From Rubrivivax sp. (GTDB lineage Bacteria > Pseudomonadota > Gammaproteobacteria > Burkholderiales > Burkholderiaceae_C), in contig JALHMT010000013.1 of the NCBI GenBank assembly GCA_022843905.1, positions 1 through 64,000 of the forward strand: 64,000 nt of DNA. Reading direction: 5' to 3'. Each line of letters starts with the position of its first letter. Position 1 is the stretch's first letter. Shown here in pieces: positions 3,065 to 21,477 of the stretch. Position numbers and translations under genes: made by a program. Under the pieces are notes generated by a model that made no database searches, was not told where the DNA came from, and saw only the letters and a list, made by a program, of their open reading frames with translations.

Positions 3065-6000
3065 GTGAGCCTGCGGGCCTGGGAGCGCCTGATCCCCGAG
3101 GCGCCGAAGGCGCTGCTGCAACTGCTGGACGTCGCCGCCGGCCCCTTGCTGGTGCCGGTGCGCTCGGAGATCTTCGGCCCGCAGCGCTTCGCGCAGCATG
3201 GGCGCAGCCTGGGCATGACGCACGACGCGCGCCGGCCCGGGCGCGGCAGTGCCAGCTTCTTTCCGCGTCTGCGCGGCAACGTCCGCATGCTTCGCCATGC
3301 GCATCGGGTCATCGCCGACCAGGGCGCGGCGGGGCACGAGCTCAGCCCGGCGGCGCTGTGGCTGCTGGACAACTTCCACCTCATCGAGGCGCAGCTGCAG
3401 GCCATCCACGAAGGCCTGCCGCGAAGCTTCTTCCGCGCGTTGCCGGTGCTCTACGACGAGCCGCTGGCTGGCCTGCCGCGCATCTACGGCGTGGCCTGGG
3501 CTTTCGTGGCGCACACCGACAGCGGCTTCGACGAGGAACTTCTGCTGCACTTCCTGGACGCCTACCAGGAGACGCGCCCGCTCAAGCTCAGCGAGATGTG
3601 GGCACTGCCCACGACGCTGCGCGTGGTCCTGGTGGAGAACCTGCGCCGGCTGGCCGAACGGCTGGCCACGCACAAGGCCGCACGCGAGGTGGCCAACCTG
3701 TGCTGCGACCGCATCGAGGGCGTCACGCTGCCGACCCTGCAGGACATGCTGGCACTGACCGAGCAGCGCGGCTGCAGCACGGCCTTCCTGGCACAGATGG
3801 GCCAGCGACTGCTCGACCGCGCGCACGGCATGAGCGAACGCGTGCCGGCGCCTCTGCGGCAGTGGCTGCTGGAAGTGCTGCCCAACCTGGCGGCCGTGCA
3901 GGCCCAGCAGAGCGTGGAGCAGACCGCCGACAACCTGAGCGTCAGCAATGCCGTGGCCTCGCTGCGCGCCATCGGTGACGCCGACTGGCTGGACATCGTC
4001 GACCGCACCAGCCTGCTGATGCGGCTGATGCACGGCTCGCCGCTGTTCGCCGCCGAGCACCATGCCACGCGCGACCGCACCTTGCACGCCATCGAACGCC
4101 TGTCGCGCCGCAGCGGCCGCAGCGAGCTGGCGGTGGGCCAGGCGCTGCTGGGTCTGATGCAGGACGCGACCACCGACGATGCGGCGATGGCGGGTCACTG
4201 GCTGGAAGGCCCGGGCCGACACGAGCTGCAGCAAAGGCTCGACCTGCACAGCGTCTGGCGCGATCTCTGGCACCGGGCGCGGCCGCACGTCGTGCTGCCG
4301 CTGTACCTGACCATCGTCGCGCTGGGCAGCTGGGCACTGATGTCCGCCGTGCTGCAGGCCGCGCCGGGGGGGGCGCCCTTGCCGCTGCCGGTGATGGTGG
4401 CGGCACTCGTGATGGCGGCCTGGCCTGCGTCGGAAGTGGTCATCGCCCTGCTCAACCGGCTGGTCAGCGAGTCCACCACGCCACGCCACCTGCCGCGCCT
4501 GGCCTTGCTGGACGGCATTGCGCCCGAGCATCGCGTGATGGTGGTGATCCCCGGCATGCTGAGTGGCGCCGAAACCATCGACGAGCTCGTGCACCGGCTC
4601 CATCTGCACGCCCTGGCCAACCCCGAGCCGCATGCGCAGTTTGCGCTGCTCACCGACTGGCGCGACGCCGACGCCGAAAGTGCCGACGACGACGAGCCGC
4701 TGCTGGCACGCGCCGTGCAGGGCCTGCAGGCGCTGAACGCGCTGTACGCCGATGCGGCGGCTGTCCCTCCGGCCGGCCCCTCGGCCACGGTGGCCGGCGC
4801 CCCGCGCTTCGTGCTGCTGCACCGCCGCCGCAGCTTCAGCAGGAGCGAAGGGCGCTGGATCGGCTGGGAGCGCAAGCGCGGCAAGCTCGAACAGCTGGTG
4901 ACCGCGCTGGCGGCCACCCTGGACGGCGATGCCTCGGCAGCACGCGAGGCGGCCGGCGCCTTCGTCGACCTCGGGCCGCTGTCGACCTTGGCCGCCGGCA
5001 CGCGCTACGTGGTCACCCTGGACAGCGATACGCAGCTGCCGCCGGGCCGCCTGCGGGAACTGGTGGGTGTGGCCGCGCACCCTGCCAACCGCCCGCGGCT
5101 GAACGCCGAAGGCACGCGCGTGGTGGCCGGCTGCGGCATCCTGCAACCGCGCCTGGTGACACCGTTGCCGGCGCCGTCCGATGACACCTTCTTTCACCGC
5201 CTGTTCGCCGGCCAGTGCGGCATCGACCCCTACAGCGCCGCCAGCTCCGAGGTCTACCAGGACGTCTTCGACGAAGGGACGTTCTCCGGCAAGGGCCTGC
5301 TGGACGTTCAGGCCGTGCATGCGGTGCTCTGCGGCAGGCTGCCCGAAGGCCAGGTGCTCAGCCACGACCTGCTGGAAGGCTCGCTGGCGCGCTGTGCCGC
5401 GGTGACCGACATCACGCTGATCGAGGACGCCCCCTTCCACGCCGAGGTGGCGGCCTCGCGCGTGCACCGCTGGACGCGTGGTGACTGGCAGCTGCTGCCC
5501 CTGCTGCTGCGCTCGCTGCTGCAGCCGAGCCGCTGGCCGCTGCGCGCCGTGAACCGCTGGAAGATGGCCGACAACCTGCGCCGATCGATGGTGCCCCCGG
5601 TGTCGCTGGCCCTGCTGGTGCTGGCCCTGTCAGGCTTCGGCCCATCGCCCCTCGCGGTGCTGCTGCTGGTGTGGGCAGCCTTCGGTGCCGGCGGCCTGAT
5701 GGGCGCACTGGCCGGACTGGTGCCCAGCCGGGTGGCGGTGGCGCACCAGCACTTCTACCGGTTGGCCGGGCAGGACCTGATGCGCGCGCTGGGCGGCGGT
5801 GCATGGCACCTGGCCATGCTGCTGCAGCACGCGCTGCTGGCGGTGGACGCCATCGTGCGCGCGCTCTACCGCGTGGCCATCAGCAGGCGTCACCTGCTGC
5901 AATGGACCACCGCCGCCTCGGCGCAGGCTTCAGCCAGCGGCGACCTGTCGACGGCGCTGCGCCGCCACTGGAGCGTGCCGCTGGTTGCCGGCGCCATCGG

Positions 6001-9000
6001 CGCGGGCTTGTGGGCGGCGGGCACGCCCTGGCCGCTGGCCAGCGGCCTGCTGTGCCTGCTGTGGGGCGCGGCGCCGCTGTGGAGCTGGATGGTCAGCCGC
6101 ACCGGCATCACCAGGCAGCCGCAGGACTGTCCGCCGCAGGACGCGGGCTACCTGCTCGAAGTGGCTCGCGACACCTGGCGCTTCTTCGAACGCACGGTGA
6201 GCGTCGACGACCGCCACCTGCCGCCGGACAACCTGCAGACGCTGCCGCACGAGATGCTGGCGCACCGCACCTCGCCCACCAACATCGGCCTGTACCTGCT
6301 CAGCGTGGCCTGCGCGCGGCAGTTCGGCTGGATCGACACCCCGCAGATGGTGCAACGCCTGGCGGCGACGCTGGACACGCTGGAGGCCCTGCCGCGCCAC
6401 CGTGGGCATTTCTACAACTGGTACGACACGCAGACCGGCCAGCCGCTGCTGCCGATGTATGTCTCCACGGTGGACAGCGGCAACCTCAGCGGCCATCTGC
6501 TGACCGTGGCGCAGGCCTGCCTGGAGCTGGCGCGCCCGGGGTCTGCGGGGATCGGCTCGAAAGTGACGCCGGCAGCACCTGCGCACGCCAGCGCCGCCGC
6601 CGAAGGGGCGTGCTCGCTGCGCCTGCTGGCCCGGCGCTGCGAGACGCTGGCCTGGGCGCCCGACTTCGCCTTCCTGTACCACCCGCGGCGGCACCTGCTG
6701 CACATCGGTTACCGCGTGGCCGAGCAGCAGCTGGACGGCAGCTTCTACGACCTGCTGGCCTCGGAGTCCCGCCTGACCAGCCTGCTGGCCATCGCCAAGG
6801 GCGACGTGCCGGTGCGCCACTGGGCGGCCCTCGGCCGGCCCTTCTATGCCGTGGGCGGTTCGGCAGCGCTTCGCTCGTGGTCGGGATCGATGTTCGAGTA
6901 CCTGATGCCCACGCTGGTGCTGGCCGAGCCGCACGGCAGCGTGCTGCGCGAGGCCGGCTGTGCGGCGGTGGGCGAGCAGAAGGCCTTCGCGCGCGCGCAG
7001 GGCGTGCCCTGGGGCATCTCGGAGTCGGCCTATGCGGGCGCCGACCACACGCTGGCCTACCAGTACGCGCCGCAGGGAGTGCCGCGGCTGGCGCTGCGCC
7101 GCACACCGCCCGACGAACTGGTGGTCGCGCCCTACGCCACCGCGCTGGCTGCACAGCTGGTGCCGCACCGGGCGCGCCGGAATCTCGAGGCCCTGCAGGC
7201 CCTGGGCGCGCGCGGCGATCTGGGCTTCATCGAGGCGCTGGACTTCACGCCCTCGCGCCAGGCCGGCAGCGAAAAGGTGACGCCCGTTCAGACCTTCATG
7301 GCGCATCACCAGGGCATGAGCATCGTGGCGCTGGCCAACGTGCTGCTGGACGGCGCGCCGCGGCGCTGGGGCATGGCCAATCCCCACATCGAGGCGGTGT
7401 CCTCGCTGCTGCACGAGCGGGCCCCGCGCGAGGTCTCGCGGCTGTATGCGCCGCAGGCCGTGGCCGCGTCCATCGTGGCGCGACGCAAGATGCCGGCGCG
7501 GCTGCGCGAGGTGCGGCCGGGGCAGCACGCCATCGAGCCCACGCAGCTGCTGTCCAACGGCCGCTACAGCGTCTCGCTGCGCGCCAACGGCGCCGGCCAC
7601 AGCCGCTGGGACGGCAGCGACATCACGCGCCGCCGCGACGACGCGCTGCGCGACGGTTGCGGCAGCTTCTTCTGGCTGCGGCGTGAGGGCGGGGCGGCGC
7701 CGGTGTCGCTGACGCAGCACCCGGCACCCGATCCGGCGGCCGACTACGCCAGCGTCTTCCATCCCGACCGCGTGTGCTTCGACACGCGCTGGAGCGACCT
7801 GCAGACCCATGTCACGGTGTGGGTGAGCCCCGAGGACGACATCGAGTTCCGCCAGGTCGAGCTGCACAACCTGGGCGCGCAGACCTTGAGCCTGGAACTG
7901 GTCTCGGCCTTCGAGGTGACCCTGGCCGACCCGCGTGCCGACGAGGCGCATCCGGCCTTCGGCAACCTCTTCGTGAAGGCCCGCGCGCAGACCGAGCCGC
8001 GGGCGCTGGTCTTCGAGCGCCGCCCCCGCCTGGCCACCGAGCAAGGCCTGCACATGGCGCACTTCCTGGCCGAGAGCCAGCCGGTGGTGGAGACGCTGCG
8101 GTGCCAGACCGACCGCCAGGCCTGGCTGGGGCGCAACCGCGCGCCCTGGGCGCCTCGTGCCGGTCTGCTGCCCTGGCCCCTGGAAGCCAATCCCGACGCC
8201 GGCGTCGCGCTGGACACCGGCCTGGATCCGATGTGCGCTCTGGCGGCCTCGCTGCAGCTGGCACCCGGCGCCAAGGCCCGGTTGACCTTCGCCACTGCCG
8301 CCTCGCGGGACGATGCCACGCTGCAGGCCGTGCTCGACAAGTACCGCCAGCACGCCCAGGTGGAGCGCGCGTCGCTGATGTCGTCGACGCTGACCAGCAT
8401 CCGCCTGCGGGACCTCGGCATGGGAGCCCACACCAGCGTCACGCTGCAGACGCTGAACACGGCGCTGCTGCTGACCCTGACGCGGCCCCAGGCCGAGCGC
8501 CGCTCCCCGGCCGTCTGCGACCGGCGCCTGCTGTGGCGCTTCGGCATCTCGGGCGAGAGGCCGCTGGTGCTGGTGTCGGCCGCGGCGCTGCCGGGCCTGG
8601 GCCTGGTGCGTTCGCTGACGCAGGCGCTCACGCTGTGGGCCTGGGGCGGCGTCTCGGTCGACCTGGTGGTGGTGAACGCCGAGCCGGCGTCCTACCTGAT
8701 GCCCCTGCAGCGCGAGCTGGGCGCGCTGCGCGACCGCCACGATGCGGACGCGCCTGCCCGCGCCGGCCAGACCGTCACCGGCTGGCACCTGCTGCGGGCC
8801 GAGGACCTCTCGGCCGACGAACTGTCCACGCTGCAGACGGTGGCGCGGCTGCGCCTGCTGGCCGACGGGCGGTCGCTGGCCCACCACCTCAACGAATGGG
8901 CCAATGTGCATGAAGACGCCCTGGGGGCGCGCCAGGCCTCGGCCCATGTGCCGCTGGCGGCCGCGGCGAAGGGCGGCGAAGAGGCGGCGGTGTCTCAGGG

Positions 9001-11491
9001 CCGCTTCATCGACGACGGTGCCGGCTTCCGCTTTCCCGCCGGCAGCGCGTTGCGGCCGCAGCGGCCCTGGATCAACGTGCTGGCCAACCCCGACTTCGGC
9101 AGCCAGGTCAGCGAAGGTGGCGGTGGTGTGACCTGGGCCGTGAACAGCCGCATGAACCAGCTCACGCCCTGGAGCAATGACCCCGTGGCCGATCCGCCCT
9201 GCGAGTGGCTGCTGCTGCAGGACCGTCGCACGCTGGAGGTCTGGAGCCTGGCGCCCTCGGCCTTTGCCGAGCCGGGTGCGGTGTACGAGGTGACGCACGG
9301 CGCCGGCTTCACCAGCATCACGCACCGGCGAGGCGAGCTCGACATCGGCCTGCACTGGTGCGTGGACGCCGAACGTTCGGTCAAGCAAGTGCAGTTGCGG
9401 CTGCACAACCGCGGCAGCCGCGCCCGCGCGCTGCGTTTCGTGGCCGTCACCGAGTGGATGATGGGCGCGCAGCGCAGCGACCGCGCCAGCGTGCACACGA
9501 GCCTGTTCCGCCAGCGGCTGGCCCGCGGCCGGCTCACGGCGCTGATGGCCACGCAGCAGGAGGTCGGCGGCGGCTTCGGCGGCGGCACCGCCTTCCTGGC
9601 GCTGTCGGTGCCTGACGAGGACGATCGGCAGCCCGACTGGACCACCGACCGCCGCGAGTGTTTCGACGCGCGCGGCTGGCCGGTCCTGCCCGACCACTGG
9701 GCCGGGCGCCAGGGCGCCGGCCTCGACCCCTGTGCCGCCCTGGGCGTGGCGATGGAGGTCGCGCCGGGCGGAAGCGCCGAGCAGGTGCTGATCACCGGAT
9801 GGGCGGCGACGCCCGCACTGGCGCAGGAGCTGGCGGTGCTGGCGACGGCACGTTCGTCCAGCCAGCGCCAGGACGAGGTGGTGTCGCGCTGGGACGAGCT
9901 GCTGGGCGCCACGGTGGTGAAGACTCCCGATCCCTTGTTCGATGCGCTGGTCAACCGCTGGCTTCTGTACCAGGCGGTGTCTTGCCGCCTGTGGGCCAAG
10001 GCTGGCTTCTATCAGGCCGGCGGTGCCACGGGCTTCCGCGATCAGCTGCAGGACGCCATGGCGCTGGCCTGGGCGGCGCCCGCCATGCTGCGCGAGCAGA
10101 TCCTGCGCTGCGCTTCGCGGCAGTTCGCCGAAGGCGACGTCCAGCACTGGTGGCACGCGCCGCAGGGCGCGGGCGTGCGCACGCATTTCTCCGACGACCT
10201 GCTGTGGCTGCCCTTCGCGGTGTCGCACTACCTGCAGCGCACCGGTGACGCCACGGTGCTCGACGAGCAGCTGCCCTTCATCGAAGGACAGGTCATCGCC
10301 GAAGGTGCCGAGGACGCGTACGGCACACCGACCGTCGGCCACACGCTGGCCAGCGTCTACGAACACGCGGCGCGCAGCATCGACCGCAGCCTGCGAACCG
10401 GCGCGCACGGCCTGCCGCTGATGGGCAGCGGCGACTGGAACGACGGCATGAACCGGGTCGGCCACGAGGGTCGCGGCGAATCGGTGTGGCTGGCCTGGTT
10501 CCTTTGCCGCGTGGTGGCCGACTATGCACCGCTGGCACGACGCCGTGGCGACGTCGGCCGGGCGCAGCGCTGGGAAGAGGCCGCGCGCGGCTGGCGGGCC
10601 GCGCTGCAGGGCCCGGCCTGGGACGGCCGCTGGTACGCACGCGCCTTCTTCGACGACGGCAGCGCGCTGGGCTCGCAGCACAACGCGGAGGCGCGCATCG
10701 ACCTCATCGCGCAGGCCTGGTCGGTGCTCGGCGGAGCGGGTGCGGCGGCGCCGCCCGCGCGGCAGGCGATGGCGCTGGACGCCGTTCGCATGCACCTGGT
10801 GGACGACCGTGCGGGGCTGATCCGTCTACTCGACCCGCCGCTGGCGCAGGCCCGACCCAGCGCCGGCTACATCCAGGCCTACCCGGCGGGGGTGCGCGAG
10901 AACGGCGGTCAGTACTCGCATGCCGGCGTCTGGGCCATGATGGCGCAGCTGCAGCACGCCAAGACCCTGGACGAGCCCGGGCCGGCGCTCGACCGCGCCT
11001 GGCAGTACTTCCGCCACCTGAGTCCGCCTCACCGCGCTGCCGATCCGGCGCAGAACCTGGCCTACGGCATCGAGCCCTACGTGATGGCCGGCGACGTCTA
11101 CACCGCGGCGCCCTGCGTGGGACGCGGTGGCTGGAGCTGGTACACGGGCGCGGCGGCCTGGATGCACCGTGCCGCCATCGAGTCCATCGTGGGGCTGCAG
11201 TCGGGGCCCGAGGATCTGCAGTTCGATCCCGGCCTGCCCGGTCACTGGCCGCGCGTCGAGCTGACATTGCGGCGCGACGGGCGCGTGCTGCACTTCCTGC
11301 TGCTGCGCGTGCCGGCCGAGCGCGCCCTGGCGGCGGCGGCCGCCTGGGCGCGCGGCGACGAGCTGCGGCTGCTGCTGCCGAGGCAGCCGCTGCGCTGGCA
11401 GGACCTGCCGGCTTTCGTGCGGCACGTGGTGCCGGTCGGCCCTGGCAGGCCCCTGGGCGCTGCCGTGGCAGAGGCTGCGGGAACGGCCTGA
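3065..11491 (+). CDS. ndvB: Cyclic beta-1,2-glucan synthase (GT84 + GH94 type)
   Basis: 2808 aa; 'YVVTLDSDTQLPPGRLRELVG', 'FFHRLFAGQCGIDPYSAASSEVYQDVFDEGTFSGKG', 'HRWTRGDWQLLP', and a GH94 region 'LMGSGDWNDGMNRVGHEGRGESVWLAWFL'. Confidence 0.92.
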   Translation: MSLRAWERLIPEAPKALLQLLDVAAGPLLVPVRSEIFGPQRFAQHGRSLGMTHDARRPGRGSASFFPRLRGNVRMLRHAHRVIADQGAAGHELSPAALWLLDNFHLIEAQLQAIHEGLPRSFFRALPVLYDEPLAGLPRIYGVAWAFVAHTDSGFDEELLLHFLDAYQETRPLKLSEMWALPTTLRVVLVENLRRLAERLATHKAAREVANLCCDRIEGVTLPTLQDMLALTEQRGCSTAFLAQMGQRLLDRAHGMSERVPAPLRQWLLEVLPNLAAVQAQQSVEQTADNLSVSNAVASLRAIGDADWLDIVDRTSLLMRLMHGSPLFAAEHHATRDRTLHAIERLSRRSGRSELAVGQALLGLMQDATTDDAAMAGHWLEGPGRHELQQRLDLHSVWRDLWHRARPHVVLPLYLTIVALGSWALMSAVLQAAPGGAPLPLPVMVAALVMAAWPASEVVIALLNRLVSESTTPRHLPRLALLDGIAPEHRVMVVIPGMLSGAETIDELVHRLHLHALANPEPHAQFALLTDWRDADAESADDDEPLLARAVQGLQALNALYADAAAVPPAGPSATVAGAPRFVLLHRRRSFSRSEGRWIGWERKRGKLEQLVTALAATLDGDASAAREAAGAFVDLGPLSTLAAGTRYVVTLDSDTQLPPGRLRELVGVAAHPANRPRLNAEGTRVVAGCGILQPRLVTPLPAPSDDTFFHRLFAGQCGIDPYSAASSEVYQDVFDEGTFSGKGLLDVQAVHAVLCGRLPEGQVLSHDLLEGSLARCAAVTDITLIEDAPFHAEVAASRVHRWTRGDWQLLPLLLRSLLQPSRWPLRAVNRWKMADNLRRSMVPPVSLALLVLALSGFGPSPLAVLLLVWAAFGAGGLMGALAGLVPSRVAVAHQHFYRLAGQDLMRALGGGAWHLAMLLQHALLAVDAIVRALYRVAISRRHLLQWTTAASAQASASGDLSTALRRHWSVPLVAGAIGAGLWAAGTPWPLASGLLCLLWGAAPLWSWMVSRTGITRQPQDCPPQDAGYLLEVARDTWRFFERTVSVDDRHLPPDNLQTLPHEMLAHRTSPTNIGLYLLSVACARQFGWIDTPQMVQRLAATLDTLEALPRHRGHFYNWYDTQTGQPLLPMYVSTVDSGNLSGHLLTVAQACLELARPGSAGIGSKVTPAAPAHASAAAEGACSLRLLARRCETLAWAPDFAFLYHPRRHLLHIGYRVAEQQLDGSFYDLLASESRLTSLLAIAKGDVPVRHWAALGRPFYAVGGSAALRSWSGSMFEYLMPTLVLAEPHGSVLREAGCAAVGEQKAFARAQGVPWGISESAYAGADHTLAYQYAPQGVPRLALRRTPPDELVVAPYATALAAQLVPHRARRNLEALQALGARGDLGFIEALDFTPSRQAGSEKVTPVQTFMAHHQGMSIVALANVLLDGAPRRWGMANPHIEAVSSLLHERAPREVSRLYAPQAVAASIVARRKMPARLREVRPGQHAIEPTQLLSNGRYSVSLRANGAGHSRWDGSDITRRRDDALRDGCGSFFWLRREGGAAPVSLTQHPAPDPAADYASVFHPDRVCFDTRWSDLQTHVTVWVSPEDDIEFRQVELHNLGAQTLSLELVSAFEVTLADPRADEAHPAFGNLFVKARAQTEPRALVFERRPRLATEQGLHMAHFLAESQPVVETLRCQTDRQAWLGRNRAPWAPRAGLLPWPLEANPDAGVALDTGLDPMCALAASLQLAPGAKARLTFATAASRDDATLQAVLDKYRQHAQVERASLMSSTLTSIRLRDLGMGAHTSVTLQTLNTALLLTLTRPQAERRSPAVCDRRLLWRFGISGERPLVLVSAAALPGLGLVRSLTQALTLWAWGGVSVDLVVVNAEPASYLMPLQRELGALRDRHDADAPARAGQTVTGWHLLRAEDLSADELSTLQTVARLRLLADGRSLAHHLNEWANVHEDALGARQASAHVPLAAAAKGGEEAAVSQGRFIDDGAGFRFPAGSALRPQRPWINVLANPDFGSQVSEGGGGVTWAVNSRMNQLTPWSNDPVADPPCEWLLLQDRRTLEVWSLAPSAFAEPGAVYEVTHGAGFTSITHRRGELDIGLHWCVDAERSVKQVQLRLHNRGSRARALRFVAVTEWMMGAQRSDRASVHTSLFRQRLARGRLTALMATQQEVGGGFGGGTAFLALSVPDEDDRQPDWTTDRRECFDARGWPVLPDHWAGRQGAGLDPCAALGVAMEVAPGGSAEQVLITGWAATPALAQELAVLATARSSSQRQDEVVSRWDELLGATVVKTPDPLFDALVNRWLLYQAVSCRLWAKAGFYQAGGATGFRDQLQDAMALAWAAPAMLREQILRCASRQFAEGDVQHWWHAPQGAGVRTHFSDDLLWLPFAVSHYLQRTGDATVLDEQLPFIEGQVIAEGAEDAYGTPTVGHTLASVYEHAARSIDRSLRTGAHGLPLMGSGDWNDGMNRVGHEGRGESVWLAWFLCRVVADYAPLARRRGDVGRAQRWEEAARGWRAALQGPAWDGRWYARAFFDDGSALGSQHNAEARIDLIAQAWSVLGGAGAAAPPARQAMALDAVRMHLVDDRAGLIRLLDPPLAQARPSAGYIQAYPAGVRENGGQYSHAGVWAMMAQLQHAKTLDEPGPALDRAWQYFRHLSPPHRAADPAQNLAYGIEPYVMAGDVYTAAPCVGRGGWSWYTGAAAWMHRAAIESIVGLQSGPEDLQFDPGLPGHWPRVELTLRRDGRVLHFLLLRVPAERALAAAAAWARGDELRLLLPRQPLRWQDLPAFVRHVVPVGPGRPLGAAVAEAAGTA

Positions 11492-19549: not shown

Positions 19550-19954
19550 TCACTCGTTCCTGAACAGGCCCTTGGCCTTCATGCGCTGCAGCCGCGTGCG
19601 CTGGGGCGGGGGCCCGGGCGTGGGCGGCGGCGGTGGCGGCAATGCGGCTGGGACCGGCATCAGGTCGCCGTCCAGCACCTCGGTCAGCACCGGCAGTTCG
19701 CGCACCGCGTCGCGCAGTTCACGCAGGAAGTTTTCGTAGGCCCCGGGGTCGAGCGGGGACGCCGGGGCGGCCGTGTCGGCCTCGCCCTGGCGGGCGTGGT
19801 GGTCGATGCGCAGGCGCTCCCAGACCAGCCCGCTGGCCGCCAGCTGACGCAGCCGCTCTTCCCGCGAGGCATCGCTGCCGATGGCGCACAGCGCCGCGTG
19901 CAGCTCCGGCTGCACCTCGCTGTCGACATCAAGCTGCAGGCGGATCGCGGCCAC
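19550..19954 (-). CDS. Hypothetical 134-aa protein with polyproline C-terminal tail, downstream of the ParM-like gene
   Basis: GTG start (MAAIRLQLDVDSEVQPELHAALCAIGSDASREERLRQLAASGLVWERLRIDHHARQG..) ending 'ALPPPPPPTPGPPPQRTRLQRMKAKGLFRNE'; 38 bp after the ParM-like stop, same strand. Confidence 0.65.
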   Translation of the reverse strand: MAAIRLQLDVDSEVQPELHAALCAIGSDASREERLRQLAASGLVWERLRIDHHARQGEADTAAPASPLDPGAYENFLRELRDAVRELPVLTEVLDGDLMPVPAALPPPPPPTPGPPPQRTRLQRMKAKGLFRNE

Positions 19955-19992
19955 GGCGGCCAGGCGAAGCGGAGCAGGCCGTTGCGCCGGGC

Positions 19993-21141
19993 TCAGGCGC
20001 CGGCCGCGGGTTCCTCGGCCATCGCCTCGCCGATGAGCTGGAAGCCGCGCACGTTGGCCTCCATCGGGTCGGGCATGATGAACACGGGAATGGCCGGGAA
20101 GCGGCGCGCCAGCACGTCGCGGTAGCGCTCGGGATGGCCGCCCACCAGCACCATCAGGTCGATGATCTCGTGGGCGTCGCGCAGGCCGTCGACCATGCGG
20201 TTGATCGAGTCCTCGACCACCGTCATGATCACCGGCTCGAAGGGATGCAGGTCGTGCGCCACGCCCGCCAGCTTGACCGGCTGGCCGTGGCGCAGGGCGT
20301 CGTTGATGCGCGGCAGCACGGCCGGGCCCAGCGGGCGGCCCACCTCGGCCACCAGCGAGTCGAGCACCGAACGCACGACGCGGTGGCGCCCGGCGTCGGA
20401 CGCCGCGCCGCTGGCCCGCGGGTTGATGCTGCCCTGCTGGATCAGCAGCCAGTCCAGCGTGTGCTCGCCGGGGTCGACCATCAGCACCGCCAGGTCGTCC
20501 AGCGCTTCGCCCGACGGCAGCGGCTTCAGGGCGCCCGGGGTGCGGGCGATCAGTGCATTGAGCGCGTCCAGGTGCTCGTCCAGCGCTGCATAGCCGCCCA
20601 TCGGCTGCGCCTGCACCAGCACGCGTTCGACGTGCAGGTGCTTGCCGCTGCCGACGTCGATGTCGCCTTCGAAGCGCGAGCGCAGGTAGTCGCGCCGCTT
20701 GGCGTCGTTGTACTGGTTGACGGGCAGCCCCAGCACCAGCACGTCGACCCGCGGGTCGCCGGCTTCGAGCATGTAGCGCAACGCGCCCTTGGTCAGCGCC
20801 TCGTAGATGGCGCCGCGGTAGAACTCGTCGGTCACGTCGCGGCCGAAGCTGCCGCCGGCCTGTGCCAGGCCGACGTCGCGGCCGACTTCGTAGTGGGCGC
20901 CGCCCACCGGCACGTCGAAGGTGTCGCGACGGCGCGTGCCCAGCGTGCGCACCGCGCTCGCGTCGGCGGGAATGGCCATCGACGGAAAGCTGATGAACGA
21001 CACGCCGTCGCCTTCTCTCACGCTGGCCTTCACCAGGCCGAAGCCGACGTCGATGGCGCGCACCACCGGCGCGGCCGCGGATGAAGCGGTCCCCGCGGCG
21101 GAGATCACTTCGCGGAGCTTGGGCTTGGGCAGGTTGGGCAT
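19993..21141 (-). CDS. ParM/StbA-like (PRTRC protein D-like) actin-type ATPase
   Basis: 382 aa from MPNLPKPKLREV; 'VRAIDVGFGLVKAS' (phosphate-1), 'VLMVDPGEHTLDWLLIQQG' (phosphate-2), 'IIDLMVLVGGHPERYRDVLARRFP' (adenosine motif). Confidence 0.82.
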   Translation of the reverse strand: MPNLPKPKLREVISAAGTASSAAAPVVRAIDVGFGLVKASVREGDGVSFISFPSMAIPADASAVRTLGTRRRDTFDVPVGGAHYEVGRDVGLAQAGGSFGRDVTDEFYRGAIYEALTKGALRYMLEAGDPRVDVLVLGLPVNQYNDAKRRDYLRSRFEGDIDVGSGKHLHVERVLVQAQPMGGYAALDEHLDALNALIARTPGALKPLPSGEALDDLAVLMVDPGEHTLDWLLIQQGSINPRASGAASDAGRHRVVRSVLDSLVAEVGRPLGPAVLPRINDALRHGQPVKLAGVAHDLHPFEPVIMTVVEDSINRMVDGLRDAHEIIDLMVLVGGHPERYRDVLARRFPAIPVFIMPDPMEANVRGFQLIGEAMAEEPAAGA

Positions 21142-21242
21142 GGGGAGGGTTCCGGGGGTTGAGGAGGCAGGACACCGCGGCGCGAGCCGCTCCCGGACAT
21201 CCTGGAAGCACCGGCGCGGCGGGCGTGGGCCCGTCGCCACGC

Positions 21243-21304
21243 GCACACAAGGGTCGAGTCTGCTGGCGGCCTGCCGGCGCTCTTGTGTGCAAGGGTGTGC
21301 AACG
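21243..21304. repeat. Inverted and direct short repeats upstream of the ParM-like gene (candidate centromere/operator)
   Basis: GCACACAAG (21243-21251) / CTTGTGTGC (21282-21290) inverted repeat; tandem GTGTGCAAGG-GTGTGCAACG (21285-21304). Confidence 0.4.
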
Positions 21305-21477
21305 CGGCCCAGCGGCGAGGCCCCTGGTCGAAGCATCGACAGGGATCTGCAGGGCGTGCTGCCGCGTCGGGACCGCCGTGAACGCGCCGCGGGCACGCTG
21401 CATGGCGAAACACATCGGCACCGCCCGACACCGCCGCGAACCCGGAGATGTTCGCGCGGCGGCGCCCAGATCTTCGG

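Follow-up and report, generated by a model that had tools for sequence, protein, structure and literature searches.

We analysed a window of 64,000 nucleotides, the whole stretch of Rubrivivax sp. DNA presented here, in which two adjacent genes on the minus strand encode an actin-like ATPase and a small partner protein (Table 1). The first-pass annotation had described an ORF of 382 aa with the phosphate-1, phosphate-2 and adenosine motifs of actins, followed 38 bp downstream on the same strand by an ORF of 134 aa ending PVPAALPPPPPPTPGPPPQRTRLQRMKAKGLFRNE, and both descriptions were borne out. Translation and ortholog alignment located the three motifs, which showed near-total invariance across 12 orthologs. 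Profile searches matched the larger protein to Pfam ALP_N (E = 6.4e-28) and to PHROG 691, a phage/plasmid partition protein (E = 1.3e-23); its top NCBIfam match was PRTRC_D (TIGR03739; E = 2.3e-49), with a score of 168.1 bits that lies below the curated cut-off of 214.8. For a structural model of moderate confidence (mean pLDDT 64, pTM 0.63), the top fold match was pSK41 ParM, and the nearest solved structures by E-value also included the CorM filament (PDB 9rmi; CorM is presumably FcmB) and the chromosomal Dh-cParM1. The protein combines the nucleotide motifs of actins with a ParM-type fold, and is classed here as a ParM/PRTRC-D-type actin. Its dN/dS of ~0.07-0.6 among orthologs indicated coding-like substitution.

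Table 1. Features of the actin-adaptor locus, in window coordinates.
Feature	Position	Strand	Details and evidence
ParR-type adaptor (P0002)	19550..19954	minus	134 aa, GTG start; 3' of actin in every ortholog, purifying selection
Adaptor N-terminal domain, predicted extended-helix-helix, RHH-like	19790..19954	minus	residues 1-55; hhalign, model
Polyproline run of adaptor linker	19604..19642	minus	about residues 105-117; not conserved (ortholog alignment)
Basic C-terminal tail QRTRLQRMKAKGLFRNE, candidate filament-binding peptide	19553..19603	minus	residues 118-134; conserved
ParM/PRTRC-D-type actin-like ATPase (P0001)	19993..21141	minus	382 aa, ATG start; profile and fold matches
Phosphate-1 motif RAIDVGFGLVK	21028..21060	minus	residues 28-38; translation, ortholog alignment
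Phosphate-2 motif MVDPGEHTLDW	20449..20481	minus	residues 221-231; translation, ortholog alignment
Adenosine motif VLVGGHPERY	20122..20151	minus	residues 331-340; translation, ortholog alignment
Intergenic region upstream of actin, expected parC place	21142..21477		no repeat array above shuffled background

An alignment of 14 members resolved the small protein into a conserved N-terminal domain of ~50 residues (consensus LxLxxDVDSEVxPELHAxLxAIG...ERLRQLAASGLVWExLR), a linker that varies freely and a conserved tail (consensus RSRLxRMKEKGLFKNG, core RxRLxRMKxKGLFKN), in which M125, G129, L130, F131 and N133 did not vary in the 14 sequences. Values of pN followed this layout, being 0.25 in the constrained N-terminal domain and C-terminal tail and 0.50 in the free linker. 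The mean pS of the N-terminal domain was 0.48 versus a pN of 0.25, a coding-like pattern indicative of purifying selection rather than the non-coding substitution against which the first-pass annotation had cautioned. Both ORFs are genuine genes.

Searches against Pfam, NCBIfam and PHROG models returned no family match for the small protein, and neither library searches nor a fold search with its model, which was of modest confidence, returned a ribbon-helix-helix (RHH) family or fold. The model is of the extended-helix-helix type, with helices at residues 16-24 and 28-40, and is compatible with RHH. The partner had been regarded as an undescribed small protein without a recognisable RHH-type domain. 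However, its N-terminal domain (columns 3-55) proved homologous to the small proteins whose genes directly follow those of ParM/PRTRC-D on plasmids and ICEs (hhalign probability 97.2, E = 3e-11). When 398 Burkholderiales genomes were searched with the adaptor profile, the matches were mainly ORFs adjoining other ParM genes; of six genomes other than the source genome, at least four had such an ORF directly 3' of another actin-like gene. The locus has, as ParCMR systems do, an adjoining gene homologous to the partners of other ParMs. Judged by this homology and by its position 3' of the actin gene, the small protein is a ParR-type adaptor, with a putative RHH fold, and the proposal that it represents an undescribed type is not upheld.

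The polyproline-plus-basic tail had been suggested to bind filaments or membranes. The basic part of this element is indeed constrained, while the polyproline run is peculiar to the source genome and was rejected as a functional element for want of conservation in the ortholog alignment. A membrane-binding amphipathic tail was likewise rejected, as the hydrophobic moment of the 14 core residues did not exceed that of shuffled sequences in almost all members. The best match between the tail and that of the Variovorax plasmid adaptors fell at the C-terminal end in both plasmids, and homology is only suggestive because the P values were 0.025 and 0.19.

When genomes from the same family and GTDB contigs were searched, actin orthologs with 73-85% identity were recovered from Pelomonas/Roseateles, Rhizobacter, Aquabacterium, Piscinibacter, Caldimonas, an unclassified Burkholderiales MAG and one further genome, and an additional ortholog on the 784-kb secondary replicon of Eleftheria terrae. 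The adaptor gene lay directly 3' of the actin gene in all orthologs found, and the order of the two was identical in 14 other records. This conservation, together with the homology of the adaptor to ParM partners, upholds the proposal of a two-gene actin-plus-adaptor module. The pair was intact in 14 genomes; in one further Piscinibacter MAG (L044:9132-9688) the adaptor was frameshifted within the linker, through either assembly error or real decay. All orthologous pairs were found in Sphaerotilaceae-type Burkholderiales, bacteria of soil and water, with one clade copy per genome searched, and other ParM homologs in those genomes were at most 38% identical. The distribution is patchy, with the pair present in four of 200 family genomes, source genome included; none of 24 same-genus relatives had matching DNA among the matches listed, and the phage records searched gave no match.

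In a tree of 40 actins, in which long branches outside the clade make the deeper joins unsafe, 14 actins formed a clade (support 92/95) with two Variovorax plasmid ParMs as its sister (support 100/98), placed apart from the PRTRC-D plasmid branch. On this tree, the pair shares ancestry with the plasmid partition systems that Variovorax megaplasmids still carry.

ParCMR systems have a parC repeat array adjoining parMR. When up to 400 bp on either side were compared with shuffled sequence, none of 13 clade loci showed a parC-type array clearly above background. In contrast, a clear array signal was obtained in four plasmid relatives: Variovorax RA8, with five copies of the near-palindrome ACTGCTA-TAAGG-CCTTA-TAGCAGT downstream of the adaptor (L056:8769-9102), Variovorax WDL1, with 11 copies of CTTTGTCGAA upstream (L079:1946-2387), and Cupriavidus and Sulfuricystis, with arrays within ~350 bp of the start. 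The absence of arrays in the clade is not proof of loss, because seven of 11 mobile relatives also lacked a detected array in the same type of test. The parC-like arrays of RA8 and WDL1 are unannotated and differ in repeat sequence, and the annotation of parM and parR on both plasmids goes no further than hypothetical protein. A few kb from parM-parR, RA8 encodes ParAB as well.

The adaptors of the clade and of the mobile relatives also differed in charge. The net charge of the N-terminal domain was -2.1 (range -4 to 0) in the clade versus +2.9 (+1 to +5) in 16 mobile relatives, with no overlap between the ranges, and that of the last 17 residues was +2 to +5 versus -5 to +2. A DNA-binding domain would be expected to lose basic charge if DNA were no longer the cargo.

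We consider it probable, at roughly 70%, that the pair is a plasmid ParMR system domesticated on chromosomes, consisting of a filament and its adaptor with no adjacent centromere and probably an altered cargo. The product of the large gene would be a ParM-type actin polymerising with ATP. That of the small gene would be an adaptor in which an N-terminal, RHH-like domain for dimerisation is joined by a long, variable and disordered linker to a short, conserved basic peptide at the C-terminus. This peptide most likely binds the actin filament or the filament end, so that adaptor dimers would attach to ATP-driven ParM filaments via flexible linkers ending in the docking peptide. The adjacent centromere array would have been lost, or never present, on chromosomes, and the putative DNA-binding domain of the adaptor would have turned acidic. 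With no adjacent array and an acidic domain, the filament probably no longer moves neighbouring DNA; its cargo could be distant DNA or a plasmid, reached in trans, or could be of a kind other than DNA. A non-DNA cargo or a cytoskeletal role, as in cyanobacterial FcmBC, would be more likely than distant sites in trans. We tentatively put at somewhat below even odds an independent betaproteobacterial conversion of a plasmid ParMR into a chromosomal filament with non-DNA cargo, in which the charge of the adaptor was lost and the adjacent centromere discarded. The patchy distribution and non-syntenic positions of the pair argue against a housekeeping cytoskeletal role, and the patchiness also against an essential one.

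Alternatively, the pair could still be a DNA-segregation system (cParCMR), whose adaptor would bind either chromosomal sites, scattered or very short, or sites on a co-resident plasmid, while the filament moves that DNA. Retention of the RHH-like domain under purifying selection is in keeping with this, as is the ortholog on a secondary replicon, and a short centromere could be missed by a repeat count, since Cb-cParR binds a cparC of only three palindromes (PMC12270681). We nevertheless regard continued segregation as rather unlikely. In addition to the lack of an adjacent array in any clade locus tested and the acidic N-terminal domain, upstream DNA in sister loci with differing contexts was conserved for at most ~30 bp, except in two Pelomonas (~175 bp) and to some extent in Piscinibacter, and the distance from rpoB was not conserved (0.42 Mb of 3.6 Mb versus ~2.4 Mb of 6.6 Mb in two genomes).

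The neighbours of the pair (panE, metallophosphoesterase, uspA, lctP, DUF2721 and MCP genes) are unrelated to plasmids and its GC3 is host-like, in agreement with the chromosomal location first proposed. Only the pair itself is conserved: among 14 loci, gene order recurred solely in two near-identical Piscinibacter loci, and two Pelomonas species share a 2.1-kb block comprising the ~175 bp upstream, both genes and ~15 bp past the stop. Sister pairs in the actin tree were also sister pairs in the rpoB tree, but deeper branches disagreed. Between sister genomes, dS of the pair versus rpoB was 0.16/0.21, 0.54/0.57 and 0.11/0.16, but 0.34/0.21 and 0.74/0.36 in two other comparisons. The agreement of sister pairs with rpoB and the conflict at depth suggest vertical inheritance in the short term and, in the longer term, relocation or exchange. 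No means of movement was apparent. No tRNA was found near the pair and no transfer or recombination genes at the locus boundaries examined; a clean empty site was not obtained in Pelomonas or congeners because flanking genes were elsewhere or missing.

These observations bear on a second alternative, in which a lone parMR spreads among chromosomes as a mobile or selfish passenger, or acts as an anti-plasmid device interfering with incoming plasmids that carry related ParMR systems. Twelve of the 14 loci without shared gene order, the patchy distribution, the departure of the actin tree from rpoB at depth and the presence of three related mobile-element ParMs in the source genome would all fit. 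We think it distinctly improbable, however, given the lack of transfer or recombination genes at the boundaries examined, the host-like base composition, and the retention of the pair by sister genomes with dS broadly like that of rpoB, as in vertical descent (two comparisons being higher). That the pair belongs to a PRTRC system or a decayed integrated plasmid, as its best NCBIfam match might suggest, is largely refuted by the sub-threshold PRTRC_D score, the tree position outside the PRTRC-D plasmid branch, the unrelated or family-less genes found in place of companion PRTRC genes among the scanned neighbours, the absence of a nearby tRNA, the host-like GC3, and the failure to find an integrated plasmid with a known parMRC at the locus.

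Domestication of a plasmid ParMR places the pair among several known systems. Plasmid ParCMR (R1, pSK41; Variovorax RA8/WDL1) has the same order of ParM followed by a small ParR-type adaptor, and shares the actin fold and adaptor N-terminal domain; the clade pair differs in being chromosomal, in lacking an adjacent parC array, and in its acidic adaptor N-terminal domain and distinct basic C-terminal tail. The cParMR systems of Desulfitobacterium and Clostridium likewise comprise a chromosomal ParM with an adjoining adaptor, conserved within the taxon, and roles beyond plasmid segregation were proposed for them by the authors (PMC12270681). They belong to another lineage, however, with Dh-cParM1 syntenic in Desulfitobacterium and Cb-cParR accompanied by an adjacent cparC, whereas the clade pair is non-syntenic and without visible parC. 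A pair on Burkholderia multivorans chromosome 3 is also listed in that study (PMC12270681). FcmBC is a former plasmid ParMR that now affects cell shape in filamentous cyanobacteria (PMC12645912), and resembles the clade pair in being a chromosomal derivative of ParMR whose adaptor gene directly follows the actin gene and whose adaptor has no recognised domain. FcmB has AlfA as its nearest relative and is ubiquitous among heterocystous species (PMC12645912); the clade, in the tree of 40 actins, is nearest Variovorax plasmid ParM/PRTRC-D, is patchy and has no known shape phenotype. PRTRC system protein D shows family-level homology (~31-38% identity) but differs in its tree branch and its companion genes.

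The pair has parallels in FcmBC/CorMR of cyanobacteria and cParMR of clostridia. In 2025, chromosomal ParMR systems were described from Firmicutes and from cyanobacteria (PMC12270681, PMC12645912), and the clade would extend the list to another phylum. We assign the pair to a new clade of chromosomal ParMR that stands out through its missing adjacent centromere and its clear plasmid sister group; that sister group, which retains centromere arrays, provides a before-and-after pair for comparison. Because the DNA landing sites usually needed nearby are missing, the machine may now serve a different purpose. The comparison allows one to ask how a DNA-moving filament is altered once it no longer has its DNA, and how bacteria use such a filament.

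The three further ParM/PRTRC-D homologs in the source genome (G000) lie at C25:28848-29852, C40:46287-47279 and C11:49960-50937 (loci L050-L052), each with a small ParR-type partner directly 3'. Upstream of two of the three lies a divergently encoded gene resembling an integrase, an arrangement shared with plasmids of Cupriavidus, Azospira, Burkholderia, Robbsia and Sulfuricystis. Other Burkholderiales (L092, L096, L097) have another ParM subfamily, whose very short partners contain MRI(T/A)(V/I)NYFEGYPELxAxL and match no recognised family. Elsewhere in the window, positions 3065-11491 on the plus strand encode a probable cyclic beta-glucan synthase of 2808 aa, which carries GH94 and glycoamylase domains.
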